Assembly (NCBI RefSeq): GCF_009882945.1
Contig: NZ_WTUY01000005.1
Location: 537,863 to 601,862 of the forward strand
Length of the DNA: 64,000 nucleotides
Direction of reading: 5' to 3'
Source: Alcanivorax sp. DP30
GTDB lineage: Bacteria; Pseudomonadota; Gammaproteobacteria; Pseudomonadales; Alcanivoracaceae
Both the position numbers and the translations under genes were made by a program. The notes beneath the pieces were generated by a model, which worked only from the letters and a program-made list of their open reading frames with translations, searched no databases and had not been told where the DNA came from. Below, piece by piece: positions 10,501 through 53,401 of this stretch (the first letter of the stretch is position 1; each line of letters starts with the position of its first letter).

Positions 10501-11413
10501 GGCCCTGCGTGATAATCCGGATTGTGCCCGTCAGGAATTTGATGCCATTCCAGTGAGCAATGCGCCCGGGCTCAATGTCCGTCTGACCTTCGACATGACC
10601 GACAATCCGGCGGCTCCGATGATCAACACCGGCGTGCGCCCGCAGATGGCGATCCTGCGCGAGCAGGGCGTCAACGGCCAGACGGAAATGGCCGCTGCCT
10701 TCGACCGGGTCGGATTCGATGCCATCGATGTGCACATGAGCGATCTTCTGGAAGGTCGGGTGAAGCTGGAAGACTTCAAGGGCCTGGTGGCCTGCGGTGG
10801 CTTCTCCTACGGGGATGTACTCGGTGCTGGCGGTGGCTGGGCCAAGACCGTGTTGTACAACGAATCCCTGCGTGACGATTTCAACCGCTTCTTCTTCCGG
10901 GAAGATACCTTCGCGCTGGGTGTATGTAACGGTTGCCAGATGCTGTCTCACCTGAAGGACCTGATCCCCGGCGCCGAGCATTGGCCGCGTTTCGTGCGCA
11001 ACCTCTCCGAGCAGTTCGAGGCGCGCACCTCCCTGGTGGAAATCCAGAGTTCGCCGTCCATCCTGCTGCAGGATATGGCCGGCACCCGCATTCCCATCGC
11101 CGTGGCTCACGGTGAAGGCCGCGTGGAGCTGGCGGACGACACGCTGAATCGCAATCTTGAGCAGCGTCTGGTGGCTTTGCGTTATGTGGATGGCCTGGGG
11201 AATCCCACCGAGCAGTACCCGGCCAACCCCAACGGCTCGCCCCAGGGCGTGACCGGGTTCACCACTACGGACGGTCGCGTCACCATCATGATGCCGCACC
11301 CGGAGCGGGTGTTCCGCGTGCTCCAGAACAGCTGGATTCCAGATGACTGGCGCGGCCACGAGAATGGCCCCTGGTTGCGCATGTTTGCCAATGCGCGCAA
11401 GTGGGTGGGCTGA
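7538..11413 (+). CDS. purL: Phosphoribosylformylglycinamidine synthase (FGAM synthetase)
   Basis: A 1291-residue single-chain enzyme that converts FGAR, glutamine and ATP to FGAM in purine synthesis. The ATG at 7538 gives the family N-terminus [13 protein letters not shown]; an in-frame ATG at 7457 would add unconserved residues. Visible parts are an N-terminal PurS-like region, two AIR-synthase-like halves ([11 protein letters not shown], then SDGGLF and similar) and a C-terminal class I glutamine amidotransferase with Cys1133 in GVCNGCQM and the late MPHPERVFR motif. A strong terminator follows. Confidence 0.98.
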
Positions 11414-11414
11414 A

Positions 11415-11600
11415 CAGCAATAAATAATTGATAGTGAATAATTAATAACGAAAGAACAAAGGCGGAAATGGCTTGGCTATTTCCGCCTTTTTTGTGGCAC
11501 TTATTGATCTTGTGGACAAGCGAGCAAGGGATCAGAATCAAACGAGCGTTTGATAGCGGGAAGTTATCAATTTTCAATTATCCATTATCAATTGGTGTTT
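11415..11600. repeat. AT-rich inverted repeat arms around the purL terminator
   Basis: The left arm (AATAATTGATAGTGAATAAT and following bases, about 11420-11455) and right arm (GTTATCAATTTTCAATTATC and following, about 11562-11596) are AT-only, roughly inverted copies flanking the purL terminator. Similar arms occur near 24670 and 26146. Confidence 0.5.
11461..11493 (+). terminator. Rho-independent terminator of purL
   Basis: GGCGGAAATGGC pairs closely with the following GCTATTTCCGCC and is followed by TTTTTT. Confidence 0.88.
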
Positions 11601-11602
11601 CA

Positions 11603-12268
11603 GTGTCCGAAAAAACCTATGGTCCCTTCGAGCTTCGTACTGCCTACGCTTGCGAACCTGTGCCGGATGATTTTGTTCAGCGTCGTCGTATCGGTGAGGC
11701 CATTCGTACCCTCTCCGAGCGCCTGATCCGGGTGGAAGCTGATGAGGCCACGTTGACGGGCTGGGCAGACCAGCTGGAGGAGCTGGTGGCTACGGTGGGT
11801 CAGCCGGAGCGGCGTGACAGCCGTCAGGCGAATCGCAAGCTGTTCACGGGGGCGGCAACCATCGGTGATCTTTACCACATGATGGATTACGACCCCGTGG
11901 GTGGTGGCGCTAACCCCATTGCTCCACAGATCGACTGGACCCGTGAGGATCAGGATGGGGTGGAAGGTGCCTTGTGGCTCGGGCAGCAGTACCAGGGGCC
12001 GCCGGGCCGGGTTCATGGCGGGGTTATCTCCTGGATTCTGGACGCGGTGTTGTCTCGCGCCCTGCATGCGTCTTTCAAGCTGGGCGTCACCGGGACCTTG
12101 AATATTCGCTACATGGCAGGCTCTCCCATTGAGCAACCCCTGCGCTGCAGCGCCAGGATTACCGCTCACGAAGGACGGAAGATTTTTATTGAAGGGGGCA
12201 TCTGGCATGGCGAGACCCAGACAGTGCATGCCGAGGGTGTGTGGCTGACGCCAAAGAGTCTGGGGTAA
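11603..12268 (+). CDS. Hot-dog fold (PaaI-type) thioesterase family protein, first of a tandem pair
   Basis: 221 residues from GTG 11603; the start is uncertain because the ribosome-binding site is weak. The C-terminal half has the hot-dog thioesterase core: YQGPPGRVHGGVISWILDA, then TGTLNIRYMAGSPI. PaaI-type enzymes hydrolyse acyl- or aryl-CoA. The roughly 110-residue N-terminal extension is unusual for a family of about 140 residues. It is followed after six bases by a paralog with the same layout, and the two probably act together. The substrate is unknown. Confidence 0.75.
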   Translation: MSEKTYGPFELRTAYACEPVPDDFVQRRRIGEAIRTLSERLIRVEADEATLTGWADQLEELVATVGQPERRDSRQANRKLFTGAATIGDLYHMMDYDPVGGGANPIAPQIDWTREDQDGVEGALWLGQQYQGPPGRVHGGVISWILDAVLSRALHASFKLGVTGTLNIRYMAGSPIEQPLRCSARITAHEGRKIFIEGGIWHGETQTVHAEGVWLTPKSLG

Positions 12269-12274
12269 TTGACC

Positions 12275-13009
12275 ATGAAACCTGCATACCATTTTCGCGA
12301 TATTCGTGTGGCTGAAACGCCACCCCCATCAAGACGGGCGCTGTTACACCGTCAATTGGGGCAGGCGCTTGCCGGTCTTAATGAGCAGGTGTTACGACTG
12401 GATGCGCCGGAAGACGTGCTGGAAGAACTGGTTGGCCGTGTCGAGACACTGCGCGCGGAGCTGGCAGGCTACGGCCAGCGGGACTATGGCTCAGCGTTGA
12501 CACGTTTGCTTGGCGGTCAGGGCTCTGTGGATGATGTGACGGACCTGGTCGATTTCGAGATCCTTTCCGGCAAGGCTTCGCCATTATCGCCACCTCTGGA
12601 ATTGTGGCTGGACGGCGACCGGGTTCGTGGCAAGGCGCACTTTGGGCTCGCCTACCAGGGGCCGCCTGGCAGAGTGCATGGTGGGGTGCTGGCGCTGGCA
12701 CTGGATATGCTGATGGCGAAGTCCCAGGATTTTGTGGAACAGATAGGCATGACAGGGACGCTGAATATCCGCTATCTGGCCGGTACTCCGATTCAGCATG
12801 ATGTGGACTTTGAAGCAAAACTGGTTCGCCTGGAGCGCCGCAAGCTGGTGTGCGAGGGTGCGGTATGGGTCAATGGAGTGCAAACGGTCGCGGCGGAAGG
12901 GGTCTGGATCTCGGCCCATGGTGACTACCGGCTCAAGACCGAGTACCAGAATCTGGAAAATGCCATCAGAACCCGAGAGGCCGTGCAGGATGAACGAACA
13001 GACGTATAA
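12275..13009 (+). CDS. Hot-dog fold (PaaI-type) thioesterase family protein, second of a tandem pair
   Basis: 244 residues from ATG 12275. It shares with its upstream neighbour an N-terminal helical extension and the core YQGPPGRVHGGVLALALD followed by TGTLNIRYLAGTPI, so the two arose by duplication. The C-terminal tail (after about residue 215) is longer and polar. The last 20 bases overlap the start of the NIF3-like gene, which suggests translational coupling. Acyl-CoA hydrolysis is expected from the family; no substrate can be read. Confidence 0.75.
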   Translation: MKPAYHFRDIRVAETPPPSRRALLHRQLGQALAGLNEQVLRLDAPEDVLEELVGRVETLRAELAGYGQRDYGSALTRLLGGQGSVDDVTDLVDFEILSGKASPLSPPLELWLDGDRVRGKAHFGLAYQGPPGRVHGGVLALALDMLMAKSQDFVEQIGMTGTLNIRYLAGTPIQHDVDFEAKLVRLERRKLVCEGAVWVNGVQTVAAEGVWISAHGDYRLKTEYQNLENAIRTREAVQDERTDV

Positions 13010-20200: not shown

Positions 20201-21400
20201 TTACATTTGTGTAATGGAAGCGTTGTTCCCTGCGCCGCCGTACTGGCTGATGCTTGCGGTGTTGGCATCAGAGCTTTGCAGGATGGTGGCAGTATTCGGA
20301 TCAATGCTGGTGCCCAGGCCGGTCTGCAGGATATCGGCTGTATTCCCTGCGCCAGTCTGTTCGATGGAAGCGATCCCATATTCAGCCGGGGCTGTCTGGT
20401 TGATATAGGCAGAGTTGCCAGTGTTACTTTGCAGAATGGTAGCTTCACCATTGCCGCCCCACTGATCGATATCGCCGCTGTTGTTATCGCCGGACTGGGT
20501 GACGGTGCCCACGTTATCAGAGCCTGACTGCTCAATTCGACCGTAGTTCATGTCACCGGTCTGAGTGAGGGTGGCCAGGTTGCGGTCGCCAAGACCCTGA
20601 TCCACTTCACCAATCAGGTTGGTGCCATTCTGGTCAACGTAGGCTTCCGAATGATGGGATTCATCCTGAATCACGTCGGCCATGTTGTTGGTGCCCTGTT
20701 GCATGACGTCAGCGAAGGCATAATCAGACACGTTTTGCTGGCTCACGCTGGCAGTGTTGCTGTCGCCGGTTTGCTCTACATAGGCTTCTGAAAAGTCACT
20801 GTCGCTCTGGTTGACCGTGGCAGTCAGGAAGTCGCCATCATGCTGGTTAACGTTGGCAATGCTCCCTTCACCATTGGTCTGGGTGATGGTGGCAGAAGAA
20901 TCATCAGCGAATGTCTGGTCGATGTTGGCGTTGGCATTCAGGGTGGCATCCTGAACAATCACTGCGTTGTTATTGTCCGCCCCGAGCTGAGTAATTGTCG
21001 CCACGGAGGAATCGCTGCCGCCCACCTGGGAGATGGAGGCAGAGGTGTTGTCAGAGGTGAGGGTCTGGCTGATATCGCCGCTGTTGTTGTTGCCATCCTG
21101 TTCAATAGTGGCAGAGGCGAACCAGCTGTCGTCCTGCACGATGCCGGCATGGTTGTCATTACCAACGGTATCAATGTCCGCCATCATGGGGTTGACGCTG
21201 TTGGACTGGCTTACATCGGCGTTGTTGTTGTCGCCGGTCTGGTCAACGGTGGCAACGGCACCATCGACCGCACTTTGGGTGGTGCTGGCCGTGTTGTTGT
21301 TGCCCGTCTGGTTGGTGGTAGCGGTGCTGCCTGCAGCAAAGGCGCTACCGGTTGCAGCGGCCAGAATCGCGATTGCCAAAGGCTTCATTACAACTTTCAT
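20201..21400 (-). CDS. csgA: Large CsgA-like curlin, 399 aa
   Basis: A signal peptide (about 1-22, ending AFA) is followed by about 32 curlin strand units with Val/Ile-x-Gln cores at 11-13-residue pitch, for example TVTQSGDNNSGDIDQWGGNG. As in its 472-aa paralog, unit 5 has DIDTVGNDN instead of a Gln core, and both contain QGLGDRN, AEYGIA and ATILQSS in the same order near the C-terminus. AGGAAGAG precedes the ATG at 21400. The gene lies 49 bases downstream of csgB, so csgB-csgA is probably one transcript, closed by the terminator at 20151-20185. Confidence 0.93.
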   Translation of the reverse strand: MKVVMKPLAIAILAAATGSAFAAGSTATTNQTGNNNTASTTQSAVDGAVATVDQTGDNNNADVSQSNSVNPMMADIDTVGNDNHAGIVQDDSWFASATIEQDGNNNSGDISQTLTSDNTSASISQVGGSDSSVATITQLGADNNNAVIVQDATLNANANIDQTFADDSSATITQTNGEGSIANVNQHDGDFLTATVNQSDSDFSEAYVEQTGDSNTASVSQQNVSDYAFADVMQQGTNNMADVIQDESHHSEAYVDQNGTNLIGEVDQGLGDRNLATLTQTGDMNYGRIEQSGSDNVGTVTQSGDNNSGDIDQWGGNGEATILQSNTGNSAYINQTAPAEYGIASIEQTGAGNTADILQTGLGTSIDPNTATILQSSDANTASISQYGGAGNNASITQM

Positions 21401-21449: not shown

Positions 21450-21983
21450 TCAGTCCCATTGTTTAATGGAGACATACATTCCGGCCCCGTACTGGGTTAC
21501 CGAAATACTGTTGGCCGTGCCGTTTTGCGAGATCGCGGCATGGTTTCCAATTCCGTCCTGGTTTACGCGAGCGAAGTTGTCCTCTCCGATCTGCTCGATG
21601 GTGGCGGTGTTGTAATGGCCTTTCTGGTCGATAGCAGCGGAGTTGCCGATTCCGTATTGGGACACTACGGCAAGGTTTTCCCAGCCGAGCTGGGTGATAT
21701 CGGCATCCTGATTGGTGCCGTATTGAATGACGTCGGCCTGGTTGCCGTAGCCCTTCTGCATGATGCGGGCATTGTGGTCATAGCCCGTCTGAGAGACTGA
21801 GGCGGCATTGTTGCCTGTCTGGTGAATGTAGGCTGTCAGGTCTGCCCCTGTCTGGGAAATGTCTGCTTCGTTATGAAGCGGTATCTCATCGAATAATGAT
21901 AGGTCGCCGGCCTTGCTCTGCATTGTAATGAGCAATAGCAGAGTGACGATGATTCCGGGGCCTATTCCTAGCCCGATATGCAT
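21450..21983 (-). CDS. csgB: Curlin nucleator CsgB
   Basis: 177 residues with a signal peptide (about 1-25, ending SKAG). The mature chain has 13 strand units with a very regular 11-residue period (ISQ, IHQ, VSQ, IMQ, VIQ, ITQ, VSQ, IDQ, IEQ, VNQ, ISQ, VTQ, IKQ); the second unit is one residue short and the last is truncated. The end VTQYGAGMYVSIKQWD resembles the C-terminal unit of Escherichia coli CsgB, where charged and hydrophobic residues replace the turn. CsgB anchors to the surface and templates CsgA polymerisation. It is the first gene of the minus-strand curlin block. Confidence 0.87.
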   Translation of the reverse strand: MHIGLGIGPGIIVTLLLLITMQSKAGDLSLFDEIPLHNEADISQTGADLTAYIHQTGNNAASVSQTGYDHNARIMQKGYGNQADVIQYGTNQDADITQLGWENLAVVSQYGIGNSAAIDQKGHYNTATIEQIGEDNFARVNQDGIGNHAAISQNGTANSISVTQYGAGMYVSIKQWD

Positions 21984-23726: not shown

Positions 23727-24665
23727 ATGGAAATGAGCGAAAAGAACACCCTCACTCAGGCGGGGGGCAAACCGGTGGTCGGGTTGGCGCTGGGAAGTGG
23801 TTCTGCCAGGGGCTGGGCACACATCGGCGTGATCCAGGCGCTGGAAGAGATCGGGGTCGAGCCAGATGTGGTGGCAGGAACCTCTATTGGTTCTCTGGTA
23901 GGCGGGGCTTATGTCACCGGTACGCTCAATGAGTTTGCCGACTGGGTTCAGAGTCTCACCGTGAAAGACGTGGTCGGCCTGTTGGATATCAGTTTTTCCG
24001 GTGGGGTGGTGAAGGGGGAGAAGTTGTTTTCCTTCTTTCGCGAGCACCATGAAAATCCGGATATCGAGACCCTGGACAAGAAGCTGGTGACGGTGGCCAC
24101 GGACATGAAAAGTGGCCGTGAGATCTGGATCACCAAGGGACCGATGCTGGATGCCGCCCGTGCCTCCTGTGCGCTACCGGGTCTTTTTTCGCCGTTTAGC
24201 CGGCAAGGCCGCTGGATGCTGGATGGAGGGCTGGTGAATCCTGTCCCGGTGTCTGCGGCGCGAGCCATGGGGGCCGATGTGGTGATTGCGGTCAATCTGA
24301 ATGCGCAGCTGGTGGGCGCCCATCTGGCCCGGGACACCCGCAGGCAAGTTGAAGACGAGGATGCCTCCGATGAAGAGCGCAGCATCTGGCAGAAGGTGAT
24401 GGATTATTTTGCCTCTGGCGATGACGAGGACCCGGGTTTCTTCGATGTGGTTGCTTCCAGCATCAATATCATGCAGGACCGAATTACCCGCTCCCGCATG
24501 GCCGGCGATCCGCCGGAAATCACCCTGGTGCCTTTATTGGAAGATTTCGCGCTGATGGACTTTCATCGCGCCAAAGAGGCCATCGAAGAGGGGCGTGCGC
24601 TGGTAAAGCGCCACGAAGCGGACATTCGTGCGTGGGTGGGTTCGCCGGTGGCGGACAGGGTTTGA
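23727..24665 (+). CDS. rssA: Patatin-like phospholipase, RssA family
   Basis: 312 residues with the patatin catalytic dyad: Ser53 in GTSIGS and Asp166 in LDGGLVNPVP; an oxyanion-hole glycine run is in GLALGSGSARGWAHIG. Bacterial RssA-like proteins are cytoplasmic serine esterases or phospholipases of uncertain substrate. The ATG at 23733 is an alternative start two codons in. It follows the DUF1289 gene after 35 bases and ends facing corB. Confidence 0.87.
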   Translation: MEMSEKNTLTQAGGKPVVGLALGSGSARGWAHIGVIQALEEIGVEPDVVAGTSIGSLVGGAYVTGTLNEFADWVQSLTVKDVVGLLDISFSGGVVKGEKLFSFFREHHENPDIETLDKKLVTVATDMKSGREIWITKGPMLDAARASCALPGLFSPFSRQGRWMLDGGLVNPVPVSAARAMGADVVIAVNLNAQLVGAHLARDTRRQVEDEDASDEERSIWQKVMDYFASGDDEDPGFFDVVASSINIMQDRITRSRMAGDPPEITLVPLLEDFALMDFHRAKEAIEEGRALVKRHEADIRAWVGSPVADRV

Positions 24666-24669
24666 AAGG

Positions 24670-24701
24670 CAATTGATAATTGGGAATGGATAATTGATAA
24701 C
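24670..24701. repeat. AT-rich intergenic repeat
   Basis: Repeated AATTGATAAT units (AATTGATAATTGGGAATGG, then ATAATTGATAACTGG) with an opposing GTTATCAATTGC near 24803-24814. Similar arms occur near 11420, 11562, 26146 and 26277. Confidence 0.5.
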
Positions 24702-24731
24702 TGGCGCGAGCCAGCTTTTCAGGTTTCTCAA

Positions 24732-24774
24732 ACGCAAGAGGCCGCGTCCAGACTTTGGGCGCGGCCTCTTGCGT
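24732..24774. repeat. Perfect 15-bp intergenic hairpin between rssA and corB
   Basis: ACGCAAGAGGCCGCG pairs exactly with CGCGGCCTCTTGCGT across a 13-base loop. No clear T-tract follows on either strand, yet it lies between convergent genes and may stop transcription in both directions. A sister hairpin lies at 26203-26249. Confidence 0.6.
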
Positions 24775-24806
24775 CTCAATGACATGAAAGTTGATACGCG
24801 TCGTTA

Positions 24807-26069
24807 TCAATTGCCTGCTGCTCTTCTCATCCTTGCCGCTTTCACCATGTTGTCCTTCACCTGAAGGATTTCGATCTGGTAGTCCAGAATCTTCACCGAG
24901 ATGTTGGCGTCGGGGATGTCCTGTAGGTATTCCAGGATCAGGCCATTGAGGGTTTTCGGGCCGTCGGTGGGGAGGTCCCATTGCAGGGCGCGGTTGATGT
25001 CGCGCAGGGTGCTGGAGCCGTCGATAACGTAGGTGCCGTCTTCCTGGGGATGAATATCCTGGCTGGTGGCGGCAAGGTCGGTGGTGAATTCGCCCACGAT
25101 CTCCTCGAGAATATCCTCCAGCGTTACCAAGCCCAGCACATCGCCATATTCATCCACCACGATACCGATGCGACGCTTGGCATTCTGGAAGTTGATCAGC
25201 TGCTGGTGAAGGGAGGTGGCTTCCGGCACAAAGTAGGGTTCCACGGTGTACTGCATCAGCTCGGCCTTGTTGATGTCTTCCTTGAGTAACAGGCGGCTGA
25301 GTTTGCGCAGGTGCAACAGGCCGATCATGTTGTTTGGGTCGCCGTTGTACACCGGGAGACGGGTGTGTTGGCTGGACCGCAGGGTGGTGAGGATGTCGTG
25401 CATGTCATCCTCCAGATCGATGCCCACCATTTCATTGCGTGGCACCATGATGTCTTCCACGGTGACGGTTTCCAGATCCAGGATGTTGAGCAGCATCTTT
25501 TGGTGGTTTTCGGGAATCAGGCCGCCGGCCTCATTCACCACGGTGCGCAATTCTTCCGGGCTGAGGTGGTCGTCATCCTGCTCGTTGGCATTAATGCCAG
25601 CCAGGCGCAGCAGGATATTGCTGACGCCATTCACCAGCCAAACCAGTGGCGCGAGAATCGTTTGCAGCGGTTTCAGGGCCAGGCTGGCAGGAAAGGCCAC
25701 CCGTTCCGGGCGCATGGCGGCAAACGTCTTGGGGGTGATCTCCGCGAACACCAGCATGATGATGGTAATCACGACAGGCGCGACAGCAGCCCCCGTGTCG
25801 CCCAGCCAGCGGATGGCGAGTATGGCGGCCACGGTGGCGGCGAAATTGTTGACGAAGTTGTTGCCGATCAGGATTACCGACAACAAGCGGTCAGTGCGTT
25901 TTAGCAGGCCTTCCACACGGGAGGCCGCCTTGTGTCCCTGTCGGGCCAGGTGGCGCAGGCGGTATCGGTTGATGGCCACCATGCCGGTTTCACTGCTGGA
26001 GAAGAAGGCTGAGCCAAGAATCAGGAAGATCAGGGCGCCTATCAGCCACCCATCAGAGAAGGTATCCAA
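24807..26069 (-). CDS. HlyC/CorC (CNNM/CorB-type) membrane protein with CBS domains
   Basis: 420 residues. The N-terminal DUF21/CNNM domain (about 1-190) has four hydrophobic segments, the first being LIGALIFLILGSAFFSSSETG. Two CBS domains follow (about 205-330, including MVPRNEMVGID and VVDEYGDVLGLVT), then a CorC_HlyC C-terminal domain (about 335-410). Members are linked to magnesium or cobalt efflux, but transport is not proven for most. ypjD lies upstream, as in related genomes. A repeat and hairpin module flanks it on both sides. Confidence 0.9.
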   Translation of the reverse strand: MDTFSDGWLIGALIFLILGSAFFSSSETGMVAINRYRLRHLARQGHKAASRVEGLLKRTDRLLSVILIGNNFVNNFAATVAAILAIRWLGDTGAAVAPVVITIIMLVFAEITPKTFAAMRPERVAFPASLALKPLQTILAPLVWLVNGVSNILLRLAGINANEQDDDHLSPEELRTVVNEAGGLIPENHQKMLLNILDLETVTVEDIMVPRNEMVGIDLEDDMHDILTTLRSSQHTRLPVYNGDPNNMIGLLHLRKLSRLLLKEDINKAELMQYTVEPYFVPEATSLHQQLINFQNAKRRIGIVVDEYGDVLGLVTLEDILEEIVGEFTTDLAATSQDIHPQEDGTYVIDGSSTLRDINRALQWDLPTDGPKTLNGLILEYLQDIPDANISVKILDYQIEILQVKDNMVKAARMRRAAGN

Positions 26070-26145
26070 GGGAAAAGTCGTTTATCCGCCAGTTGGGTAG
26101 GTATTGTTCGGGGTAGGGGAGAGGGGTGTCAAGGAGGCGGTGATC

Positions 26146-26174
26146 AGTTAATAGTTAATAATGAATAATTAATA
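26146..26174. repeat. AT-rich intergenic repeat between corB and ypjD
   Basis: GTTAATAGTTAATAATGAAT and the following ATTAATAG, with an opposing GTTATTAATTGC near 26276-26287. Together with the hairpin at 26203-26249 it forms the same composite module as at 24670-24814. Confidence 0.5.
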
Positions 26175-26202
26175 GCTCGCGAGCCGGGGTTGCCTTGTTC
26201 TG

Positions 26203-26249
26203 CAAGCGTTGAGGCCGCGTCCGGAATCTGGGCGCGGCCTCAACGCTTG
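26203..26249. repeat. Perfect 17-bp intergenic hairpin downstream of ypjD
   Basis: CAAGCGTTGAGGCCGCG pairs exactly with CGCGGCCTCAACGCTTG across a 13-base loop that resembles the one at 24747-24759. There is no obvious T-tract. Confidence 0.6.
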
Positions 26250-26279
26250 AAACTGATAACGACGCTGAACGCGTCGTTA

Positions 26280-27083
26280 TTAATTGCGGTGCAGGATGAA
26301 CTCCAGCACCAGCTGACTACCGAAGAACCCCACCAGCAACACCGCAAACCCTCCCAGGGTAAAACGGATGGCGGTGCGGCCGCGCCAGCCGCGCAGGTGG
26401 CGTCCGGCGAGGAGCGTGGCGAAGACCACCCAGGCGATCAGGGTGAGCACGGTCTTGTGGACCAGATGCTGGGCAAACAGGTTATCCACGTAGAAAAAAC
26501 CGGAGGCAATGGCGATGGTGAGCAGGATCTCACCGACCCAGATGGCCTCGAACAACATGGTTTCCATCACCTGCACCGGCGGGAAAAGCCGCATGATGCC
26601 GCGAATGTGACCTTCTTTGAGCTGATGATCCTGTATGCGGACCAGAATGGCCTGGGCGGCTGCAATGCCGAGTACTGCGTAGGCAAGAATGGAAAACAGT
26701 ACATGGGTGCCCAGTCCGTGGGCCAGCGGTTGGGCTGTGTCGCCGTTACTGACCCAGAGCATGCCGGGAATCGTCAGCGCTGCAAACGGATAGACAATGG
26801 CGTTAATCCACTGAAACGGGCGCCACAAACAGGAAAGCAGCACCGCGATCACGCAGGTGGCAGCGGCCGCGGACGCGACCGGGAAAAGTCCCAGGCGAAG
26901 CCCTGCCGGCGTCAACATGGTGCCCCACAGGCTGATCATATGAGCGGCGACAGCAAGTCCGCCAAGGGTCAGGATGGAGCGACGGGACGGTGTGCTTTGC
27001 CCGCGAAACTGCGAGAACACCGTCAAGCTGGCCAGGATGTAAAGCGCAAAAGCGGCAAGTCCGCTGATCACGGAAAGGTTCAT
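26280..27083 (-). CDS. ypjD: YpjD/CcsA-family inner-membrane protein
   Basis: 267 residues with about eight hydrophobic segments and the CcsA-type cytochrome c assembly signature: the HVLFSILAYAVLGIAAAQA segment and conserved histidines including AHGLGTHVLF and HKTVLTLIAWVVF. True CcsA/CcmC proteins handle heme; YpjD members next to ffh and corB are of uncertain function. It is divergent from ffh, as in Pseudomonas. Confidence 0.85.
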   Translation of the reverse strand: MNLSVISGLAAFALYILASLTVFSQFRGQSTPSRRSILTLGGLAVAAHMISLWGTMLTPAGLRLGLFPVASAAAATCVIAVLLSCLWRPFQWINAIVYPFAALTIPGMLWVSNGDTAQPLAHGLGTHVLFSILAYAVLGIAAAQAILVRIQDHQLKEGHIRGIMRLFPPVQVMETMLFEAIWVGEILLTIAIASGFFYVDNLFAQHLVHKTVLTLIAWVVFATLLAGRHLRGWRGRTAIRFTLGGFAVLLVGFFGSQLVLEFILHRN

Positions 27084-37083: not shown

Positions 37084-37090
37084 TTTATTG

Positions 37091-37120
37091 TCGTCTGACG
37101 TCCGACGTCAGACGTCCGAT
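37091..37120. repeat. ACGTC-rich palindrome between hom and thrC
   Basis: CGTCTGACGT and ACGTCAGACG (37092-37101 and 37105-37114) form a perfect 10-bp inverted repeat with a CCG spacer, followed by another ACGTCCGA. It could be a dispersed extragenic repeat or a leader element of thrC. Confidence 0.5.
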
Positions 37121-50910: not shown

Positions 50911-50938
50911 CTTCGAGCTTCGAGCTTCGAGCTTCGAG
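50911..50938. repeat. Tandem direct repeat of CTTCGAG
   Basis: The heptamer CTTCGAG is repeated four times in succession right after the DoxX stop codon, before a terminator. A related tandem repeat (GAGCTAC) lies at 53141. Confidence 0.6.
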
Positions 50939-50943
50939 AAAAG

Positions 50944-50980
50944 AAAAGGCCGAGCTCTGTCAGGAGCGCGGCCTTTTTTT
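50944..50980. terminator. Terminator between DoxX and TM2 genes
   Basis: AAAAGGCCGAGCTC-loop-GAGCGCGGCCTTTTTTT: a strong stem with one mismatch and a T-run. The A-run on the other side allows it to serve both strands. Confidence 0.85.
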
Positions 50981-52608: not shown

Positions 52609-52691
52609 AAGATGTCTCATATCTGTTGTTAGGCCGATTGTAACGAAATGCCGGGCGGGTGCTACCATCTGCACAGCTGGGAGAATCTGCC

Positions 52692-53144
52692 ATGAATGAC
52701 GAAGACTGGATGCGCAGGGCATTGGCCCTGGCGGAACAAGCCGCTGAGGCCGGTGAAGTACCCGTGGGCGCCGTGTTGGTCCGCGATAACGTCTTGTTGG
52801 GGGAGGGCTTCAATCAGCCCATTGTCGCCCATGACCCCACTGCACATGCTGAAGTGATGGCGCTGCGTGATGCGGCCCGTAATGAACAGAATTATCGTCT
52901 GCCCGGTAGCACCCTGTATGTGACTTTGGAGCCTTGCACCATGTGCTTTGGTGCTTTGATCCATGCACGGGTGTCGCGGCTGGTCTATGCCGCCCCTGAA
53001 CCACGTGCAGGTGTCTGCGCCAGTCAGCTGCAGTTGCCGGAGGTATCGTTCTACAACCACAAGGTGCTGGTGGAAGGCGGGTTGCTGACGCAGGACAGTG
53101 CGGCGCTGTTGAAGGGTTTCTTTGCCAGTCGGCGGGGGCGCTGA
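52692..53144 (+). CDS. tadA: tRNA adenosine(34) deaminase TadA
   Basis: 150 residues from ATG 52692, preceded by GGGAGA. The zinc-binding deaminase motif has His52 and Glu54 (TAHAEVMAL) and Cys82 and Cys85 ([14 protein letters not shown]). It converts A34 to inosine in tRNA-Arg (ACG). It is divergent from purT. Confidence 0.95.
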
Positions 53145-53216: not shown

Positions 53217-53251
53217 CAGCAGCTGTAGGAGCGTGCCTGCACGCGATCCGA
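53217..53251. repeat. REP-like element (reverse orientation)
   Basis: CAGCAGCTGTAGGAGCGTGC and following CTGCACGCGATCC. Its reverse complement starts GGATCGCGTGCAGGCACGCT, matching the element at 13436. It resembles the Pseudomonas TGTAGGAGCG-type REP. Confidence 0.6.
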
Positions 53252-53401
53252 GCCTATCCGAGGTAAGGATTCCAGCGTCTCGACTGACGCCCCAGGCTTG
53301 CCTGGCGATCCGGATCCTGACATGGAAATGCATCAGCTTGAACAGCGTCCCCGATTTGTGTTCTGCAAGGGCCTGATCGCCCTGCGGTCGCGGAGCGGCA
53401 T

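Follow-up and report, generated by a model that had tools for sequence, protein, structure and literature searches.

Paired inverted heptad arrays frame a GC hairpin in a dispersed gene-end repeat of Alcanivorax

Two copies of one repeat flank corB

We analysed a stretch of 64,000 nt from Alcanivorax sp. DP30 (contig NZ_WTUY01000005.1, positions 537,863 to 601,862; hereafter the window, in whose coordinates positions are given) and a repeat that occurs on both sides of its corB gene. The two copies, called here element A and element B, and the genes next to them are made up as follows.

24663–24665, plus strand: stop codon of a patatin-like gene (Pfam Patatin), left of element A
24668–24815, no strand: element A, from own-genome repeat matches, between the convergent ends of the patatin-like gene (+) and corB (-)
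24673–24700, plus strand: left array of element A, G type, with the heptads TTGATAA, TTGGGAA, TGGATAA and TTGATAA (Tandem Repeats Finder (TRF), period 7)
24732–24774, no strand: central GC palindrome of element A, 18 pairs and a loop of 5, folding at -40.2 kcal/mol with flanks
24804–24810, minus strand: right heptad of element A, a single unit that holds the corB stop codon (TGA, 24807–24809, minus strand)
Right of element A, minus strand: corB (Pfam CNNM/CBS/CorC_HlyC)
26145–26287, no strand: element B, with the corB start on one side and, on the other, the end of a cytochrome c assembly gene; both genes are on the minus strand
26148–26175, plus strand: left array of element B, A type, with the heptads TTAATAG, TTAATAA, TGAATAA and TTAATAG (period-7 scan, TRF)
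26203–26249, no strand: central GC palindrome of element B, folding at -45.5 kcal/mol with flanks
26254–26282, no strand: second small hairpin of element B, in which the right heptad pairs with a nearby inverted copy of itself
26277–26283, minus strand: right heptad of element B, a single unit that supplies the stop codon (TAA, 26280–26282, minus strand) of the cytochrome c assembly gene

An earlier, sequence-only reading of this stretch had seen the same layout twice around corB, and both hairpins and the common right flank, ACGCGTCGTTAT(C/T)AATTGC at 24796–24814 and 26269–26287 (18/19 identical), are indeed present. It had given the hairpins stems of 15–17 bp and a 13-base loop. The stems are longer (for element B, 19 pairs by inverted-repeat scan and 22 by fold) and the true unpaired loop is 3–7 nt, the 13 bases having included inner stem pairs. 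The AT-rich repeat that it described is in each case a period-7 array of four heptads. What it had missed is that the outer pieces are inverted four-heptad arrays at the 3' ends of both flanking genes, that the hairpin is the middle of a plan of about 157 nt, and that arrays also stand singly before other terminators. In elements A and B the inverted array on the right agrees in type with the left arm but is cut to one heptad. A period scan of the window found five arrays of period 7 and none or one for each other period from 4 to 12; in a looser scan period 7 again gave five arrays, against 0–2 for periods 5–12.

Anatomy of the repeat

The main counts rest on 125 paired copies (both arms of at least three heptads) and 366 arrays; left out were loci L001–L008 and L048–L057 (duplicates or top-hit picks) and L302–L321 (other genera), L and G numbers being our handles for loci and genomes. 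The full layout reads GGCA, four TKRAYAR heptads, CGCG, about 35 nt, a GC hairpin, about 35 nt, CGCG and four inverted heptads, with GGCA frequent ahead of an array and CGCG often a few bases behind it. Four heptads per arm is the mode, with 4+4 in 84/125 unique copies; the spacer between arm and hairpin peaks at 35 nt on either side (125 copies), and the gap between the arms is 95–109 nt in 73 of 80 pairs from the loci of a hairpin pattern scan.

The arms of a copy are strongly matched: their types agree in 122/125, where about 51 mismatches would be expected by chance. Several heptad types coexist within one species, which rules out one type per genome. Within an array, position 3 of the heptad is uniform even though the search pattern left it free: once the 16/366 arrays with a base other than A or G there had been excluded, 253 of 350 were all A, 81 all G and 16 had one odd unit, and 2:2 arrays were found in 0/350 against 74 expected. 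Much more mixing within arrays is seen at positions 2, 5 and 7, of which 5 and 7 are still not fully random, while the near-invariance of positions 1, 4 and 6 is imposed by the search pattern and carries no claim here. A 21-bp superperiod was also considered and set aside: the first and fourth heptads are identical in 46% of arrays, yet some longer arrays deviate (by eye).

The hairpin is found when copies are chosen without it. A 13-bp stem with 11 or more matches is present in 113 of 117 cores picked by their arms only, compared with 0/117 shuffled cores, and the central hairpin averages -27.8 kcal/mol over the 125 cores. The 8 nt past the stem contain on average 4.55 T against a background of 1.66, both strands counted, and at least five of the eight are T on 137 of 250 sides; this T tail is split (TT-GCG-TTT). 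Compensatory changes in the stem had been claimed from the two window copies. Changes on both sides do occur, at 5/13 stem pairs in 28 aligned copies, but copies lie in both orientations and some of the swapped pair types are therefore orientation and not mutation. As the stem was used for choosing copies, the pair-keeping table is circular for the inner 13 pairs and the outer three alone count: these, just outside the selected stem, are paired at 0.89, 0.89 and 0.57 (125 copies), above all 500 shuffles, the shuffle ignoring relatedness. Pairs further out are not above the shuffles.

Some variants were noted. By eye, in the youngest-looking copies (L018, L022, L023, L013 and the corB-B copy of G007, L059) GCGA beside each arm forms the loop of a small hairpin, such as CGTC-GCGA-GACG or GCTGC-GCGA-GCAGC, which gives a layout of three hairpins inside the arms. 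Four loci (L243, L244, L245 and L246) carry array pairs with an inner gap of 70–74 nt in which no common hairpin was seen, possibly a second subfamily with a shorter core. Long heptad tandems occur at L168 (11 units), L159 (16), L289:6459-6559 (about 14) and L358 (more than 300 nt), the usual number being four.

Copy number and spread

Further copies and homologs, whose absence would have refuted the earlier reading, were found in number by covariance search and by blastn. The own genome gave 69 blastn matches and 124 strand-wise covariance-model hits at E <= 0.01; the latter resolve by eye into about 69 places, not 124, because the near-palindrome is matched on both strands. The model was built from 28 copies and 150 of 729 first-look candidates were scored, and about 69 may be a lower bound. 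An exact four-heptad pattern had 79 own-genome matches (overlapping windows counted) and its reversed control one. The existence of the repeat family is thus nearly certain. An Rfam scan of the window returned one tRNA and no family match for the element at gathering score.

Of 37 genomes including the own one, 19 were positive: the own genome, 16/16 other members of the genus, and 2/7 from other genera of the family (G018 with one hit at 8e-4 and G020 with two, the best at 6e-8). The covariance-model search was negative in all 13 genomes from other families of the order. Within the genus, G015 is clearly poorer, with 19 hits where most others have at least 74. Exact hairpin matches, among the matches listed, bear mainly Alcanivorax titles, Alcanivorax jadensis and Alcanivorax hongdengensis being among the species with copies. 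Alloalcanivorax venustensis and A. profundimaris each contribute a single locus, and further matches come from metagenome-assembled genomes named just Alcanivoracaceae or Pseudomonadales. The four-heptad pattern was present in 9/273 other gammaproteobacterial genomes, with more than three matches in G283 (24) and G285 (134) only, where the listed matches are nearly pure TGAATAG tandems.

Arrays lie at gene ends and supply stop codons

With eight of the 366 arrays set aside at locus edges, 297 of the remaining 358 lie at the 3' end of a gene read in the same sense, compared with 73 of 1790 random positions. The others are on the start side of a gene reading away (34), elsewhere (21) or inside a predicted gene (6). 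In agreement, 39 GC hairpins from own-genome hit loci, a few of them with other or no heptad arms (e.g. window 50946), are flanked by convergent genes in 30 cases and by tandem genes in 8, with one unresolved and none divergent, the gene calls being our own and codon-based.

The array starts close to the stop codon, which lies at most 20 nt ahead of it in 153/297 and within it in 141/297. The 141 stop codons that arrays supply are spread over the three frames (15, 74 and 52). Three-frame closure was observed at 0.75, below the 0.83 +- 0.02 obtained when heptads are drawn at random within type, which argues that the stop codons are used but are not the selected feature. An array of stops, in which heptads close all frames from either side, is therefore very hard to maintain: the heptads do contain TRA, often TAR, and do supply stops in every frame, but closure does not exceed chance and the CTTCGAG heptads described below hold no stop in that sense.

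Whole copies are replaced at orthologous gene ends

Orthologous sites differ in whether and which element they hold. Between secB and trmL an element is present in 15/16 readable genomes (G009 being unreadable), G004 having a short plain junction; between cysZ and uvrB it is absent or displaced in several genomes. One secB allele, A type and T-rich, is common to G000, G003, G012, G013 and G016, and another, A type and C-rich, to G007, G008, G011 and G014; G014 and G016 have near-identical corB flanks and different secB alleles. We compared spacers among 35 copies at five sites of four loci, of which one, the secB copy of G010, has unlike arm types. Among orthologous pairs of the same type 21/45 score above the 99th percentile of non-orthologous pairs, but among those of different type 0/112 do, their mean of -0.5 being near that of unrelated pairs (-0.9). 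Orthologous copies of different type thus have unrelated cores, indicating that the whole copy was replaced. This rules out, for paired copies, in-place compensatory co-evolution of the arms, a candidate considered as 21/21 own copies are matched.

Near-identical cores were seen by eye at unlinked gene ends (L018, L022 and L023). Comparison by eye also showed that at cysZ-uvrB the G013 core runs in the opposite orientation to those of G000 and G003, and that G003 has at corB-A a core like the one at corB-B in G000; such core exchanges and inversion would be the expected outcome of recombination between matched arms. Presence and absence between species, replacement at a site and near-identical unlinked cores support a copying element. 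The idea of a mobile or selected hairpin element put forward in the earlier reading is borne out as to dispersal and replacement, and mobility as such goes beyond that: no target duplication was seen by eye in the flanks, no recent empty site turned up at nucleotide level and an insertion enzyme was not sought, so that "mobile" here means dispersal and replacement only.

At the cysZ-uvrB site of G012 (L083) the element is apparently broken just past the left array by an insertion-sequence-like end (by eye).

Single arrays stand before terminators

In 15 own loci an array was flagged as lacking a partner, although inspection of L232 and L247 by eye revealed a worn one; three of the 15 (L233, L236 and L240) have the array directly ahead of a T-run terminator. 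The same arrangement is kept between species at glmS, where stop codon, four heptads and a GCCCGGC-type terminator follow each other in 14/16 readable genomes, the exceptions being G013 with two units and G015 with none. At fabB an array is found in 13/17, some of them worn. The glmS array is of G type in G001 and G004 and of A type elsewhere, with gene end and terminator stem unchanged. Single arrays thus switch type in place, and the array is a module of its own that can be replaced where it stands.

The same plan is filled by unrelated heptads

In the Alcanivorax loci, which are enriched for the element, neighbouring period-7 arrays 40–160 nt apart are inverted in 120 cases, direct in one and neither in 29; periods 5, 6 and 8–11 gave no inverted array pair in these loci. 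Twenty-two of the 120 inverted pairs are built from other heptads (MAAGYTN, CGAGTTT and others). Most of the 18/22 inspected by eye retain CGCG and the GC hairpin, and gene ends were detected on both sides in 10/18. Three loci (L182, L132 and L208) combine other heptads with the same GGCCGCG hairpin, the loci having been fetched by hairpin pattern.

MAAGYTN arrays were found in 5/143 gammaproteobacteria searched, own genome included. Two genomes of other families, G093 and G161, gave 16 inverted pairs in 15 of 20 stretches, which had been picked for holding a MAAGYTN-type array; nine of the pairs have gene ends on both sides, gaps range from 6 to 208 nt, and there is no fixed core, so the plan is less strict. 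The gene-end test is weak there (16/22 arrays in G093 and 20/24 in G161, against 126/900 and 298/1100 random positions). One AGTTRAA pair lies between gene ends in G018, a genome from a different genus of the Alcanivorax family.

In an unselected sample of 200 kb of the own genome period 7 accounts for nine arrays and other periods for 0–3. Samples of other genomes weigh against generality: 200 kb of G015 hold one period-7 array, not above other periods, and in 20–80 kb each G017, G020, G021, G026, G028, G029, G032 and G283 had no period-7 array; samples of G018 and G285 had two and three.

We tentatively suggest, with some doubt, that inverted heptad pairs at tail-to-tail gene ends are a general bacterial architecture in which the plan and not the letters is conserved. 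The parts proposed as conserved are a unit of exactly 7, about four units, matched arms and a start at the stop codon. The heptads filling the plan would be TKRAYAR, MAAGYTN and CGAGTTT in Alcanivorax, CAAGTTN in G093 and G161, AGTTRAA in G018 and GGGAATC in Xanthomonas. If true, a general plan would imply a heptad-specific process in which the two arms are written or rewritten jointly, and would remove the G-quadruplex account of the number four.

Other heptad arrays and neighbours in the window

Further arrays and one hairpin of the window are listed here.

11421–11448, plus strand: heptad array behind the stop codon (11411–11413) of an open reading frame (ORF) of 1318 aa, called purL in the sequence-only reading
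11458–11490, plus strand: hairpin with T-run between the two arrays of the purL pair
11564–11591, minus strand: heptad array in inverted orientation, placed where the convergent ORF 11600–12292 (-) ends, covariance-model hit G000:C23:549274-549462
50911–50938, plus strand: CTTCGAG x4, an unrelated heptad, 2 nt past a stop codon
53141–53167, plus strand: GAGCTAC heptads, about three units, overlapping the stop codon of ORF 52659–53144

The AT-rich arm pair that had been noticed around the purL terminator corresponds to the first and third of these; its arms are of two different types, which places it among the discordant copies. A hairpin with T-run (50944–50977) begins 5 nt after the CTTCGAG array. 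At 37090–37119, about 8 nt past a stop codon, a heptad palindrome (CGTCTGA/CGTCCGA/CGTCAGA) is array and hairpin in one.

Repeats of the form GTAGGAGCG...CGCGA, which we take to be REP-like, occur at 53228–53252 and at cysZ/corB sites of G002, G005, G006 and G010, and replace the heptad element at some gene ends in relatives. Two minus-strand ORFs (20201–21400 and 21450–21983) are rich in Q- and N-containing repeats and look by eye like curlin subunits.

Proposed role and competing explanations

A 3'-end cassette shared by two genes and acting as a bidirectional terminator fits the fixed plan, its hairpin, the tail-to-tail placement and the flanks rich in T on both strands, and we place moderate confidence in this reading; termination, pairing in the cell and the mechanism of copying are what we infer beyond the observed layout, placement, turnover and spread. 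On each side an array of about four heptads, inverted with respect to the other, sits at or spans the stop codon of the incoming gene; between the two lie the CGCG motifs, spacers of about 35 nt and the GC hairpin. The central hairpin would end transcription from both sides, and each transcript would close with stop codon, heptad array and hairpin. The arms would match because inheritance, copying and replacement all act on the copy as a unit, and perhaps also through pairing, either during RNA polymerase read-through or in single-stranded DNA.

Several observations weigh against this proposal. Both window hairpins went unflagged by a terminator scan, their T-rich tail being split by GCG, and 8/39 hairpins are flanked by tandem genes, an arrangement that does not call for a bidirectional terminator. 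A predicted RNA fold pairs the arms over at least 70% in 97/125 copies, but this fold had no control and same-type arms taken from other copies would also pair. When a single type is considered, likeness between the two arms of a copy does not clearly exceed that between arms of different copies (21 own-genome copies, permutation p = 0.09). In the orthologous-pair test type and species relatedness are partly confounded, and cysZ A-type copies of differing sub-type keep some likeness (best 13.0 against the cut of 13.36).

A miniature transposable element would have the arms as terminal inverted repeats with iterated 7-bp transposase sites, and the gene ends as tolerated insertions to which the arms bring stop codons. 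We consider this rather unlikely, although several features fit it: inverted arms with frequent outer GGCA ends in many copies, near-identical cores at unlinked sites, presence and absence at the cysZ, secB and corB sites, and the stop codon inside 141/297 gene-end arrays. It sits poorly with the single arrays that precede terminators at glmS and fabB in most species, and with array starts bound to the stop codon more tightly than tolerance alone suggests; nor was a target-site duplication seen by eye at the ends, a partner enzyme not having been sought.

Alternatively, the repeat could be a mutational product of no selected function, built by 7-nt slippage into arrays, with template switching across the palindrome copying one arm onto the other; any seed sequence would then give matched inverted heptads, which would survive at gene tails only. 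Polymerase slippage was proposed for heptamers in 2007, as related in the available parts of PMC4679880 and PMC4692102, and inverted pairs are indeed found at period 7 only, with unrelated heptads behaving alike in Alcanivorax, G093 and G161. The recurrence of four units, a 35-nt spacer and CGCG in unrelated copies makes this explanation unlikely, as do two further results: whole-unit copying would not leave position 3 uniform and positions 2, 5 and 7 mixed, and cores of different-type orthologs are unrelated, so the arms were not rewritten around a kept core.

That a protein reads the four tandem heptads at gene 3' ends, on RNA to set its fate or on DNA to affect topology, appears quite improbable. 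The uniformity of position 3, which the search pattern left free, and the single arrays alone at glmS speak for such a site, but quite different heptads (MAAGYTN, CGAGTTT) hold the same place in the layout, which makes one protein an unlikely reader; no candidate protein was sought. A signal for uptake in natural transformation was rejected, there being just two copies in the 64 kb.

The combination of fixed unit length, number, gene-end position and arm matching with changing letters poses a testable question: does some polymerase or repair process have a step of 7 nt, or does a function at the 3' end need the plan alone? The about 69 places make as many natural gene-end cassettes for study in the genome of one oil-degrading bacterium.

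Comparison with known systems

A literature search with most subscription journals outside its reach found no description of the Alcanivorax repeat or of heptad-binding regulators. REP/BIME and ERIC-type repeats are dispersed short intergenic palindromes at gene ends with many copies per genome, and the Alcanivorax element resembles them in being dispersed, palindromic and placed at gene ends; to our knowledge these palindromes have no heptad arms. REPs are RAYT-linked palindromes with a GTAG start, and no GTAG was seen at the hairpin foot in the 28 aligned copies, no search for RAYT having been made. Bidirectional intrinsic terminators have a GC stem with an A-rich left and a T-rich right flank and lie between convergent genes. 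Unlike these, the Alcanivorax hairpin has a split T tail and is framed by matched heptad arrays at a fixed distance.

Heptameric repeats were found to be over-represented in many bacterial genomes in 2007 and, according to the accessible portion of PMC4692102, had no detailed literature by 2015. The TAACTGA direct repeats of Beggiatoaceae, cyanobacteria and Bacteroidetes (MacGregor 2015, PMC4679880; cited from its available text) are tandem heptamers of similar composition, with two to six units in the main genome and changes in steps of 7 nt. In that genome they lie mostly just before start codons, with related heptamers rare and 169 direct sets to one indirect; in Microcystis 8/22 mapped intergenic sets lie between stop codons. 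The Alcanivorax arrays are, in contrast, mostly at gene 3' ends, and the available text describes no inverted TAACTGA pairs around a hairpin.

The closest likeness is to the GGGAATC heptad arrays of Xanthomonas (Rehm et al. 2015, PMC4692102; again from the part of the paper available), which share period 7, a mode of four, gene-end position and inverted pairs. Two genomes have 186 and 183 such arrays, the majority of four units, with 70 and 75 close inverted pairs; the mean distance of an array is 28 nt from the upstream ORF and 160 nt from the downstream one. Within the heptad, positions 1–4 and 6 are conserved and the rest free, and array length and sequence differ between related species at the same genes. 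Unlike the Alcanivorax element, these arrays are G-rich and just 16% of them fall between convergent ORFs; that part of the paper does not describe a fixed core of 100 nt that holds CGCG motifs and a GC hairpin. Its authors invoke G-quadruplex formation, also for the number four. The TKRAYAR and MAAGYTN consensus units hold no GGG run, a stray GGG (window 24680–24686) not recurring four times per array. As AT-rich or AAGYT heptads are unable to form G-quadruplexes, the number four in Alcanivorax points to another reason, which suggests that four-unit arrays need not signal G-quadruplexes.

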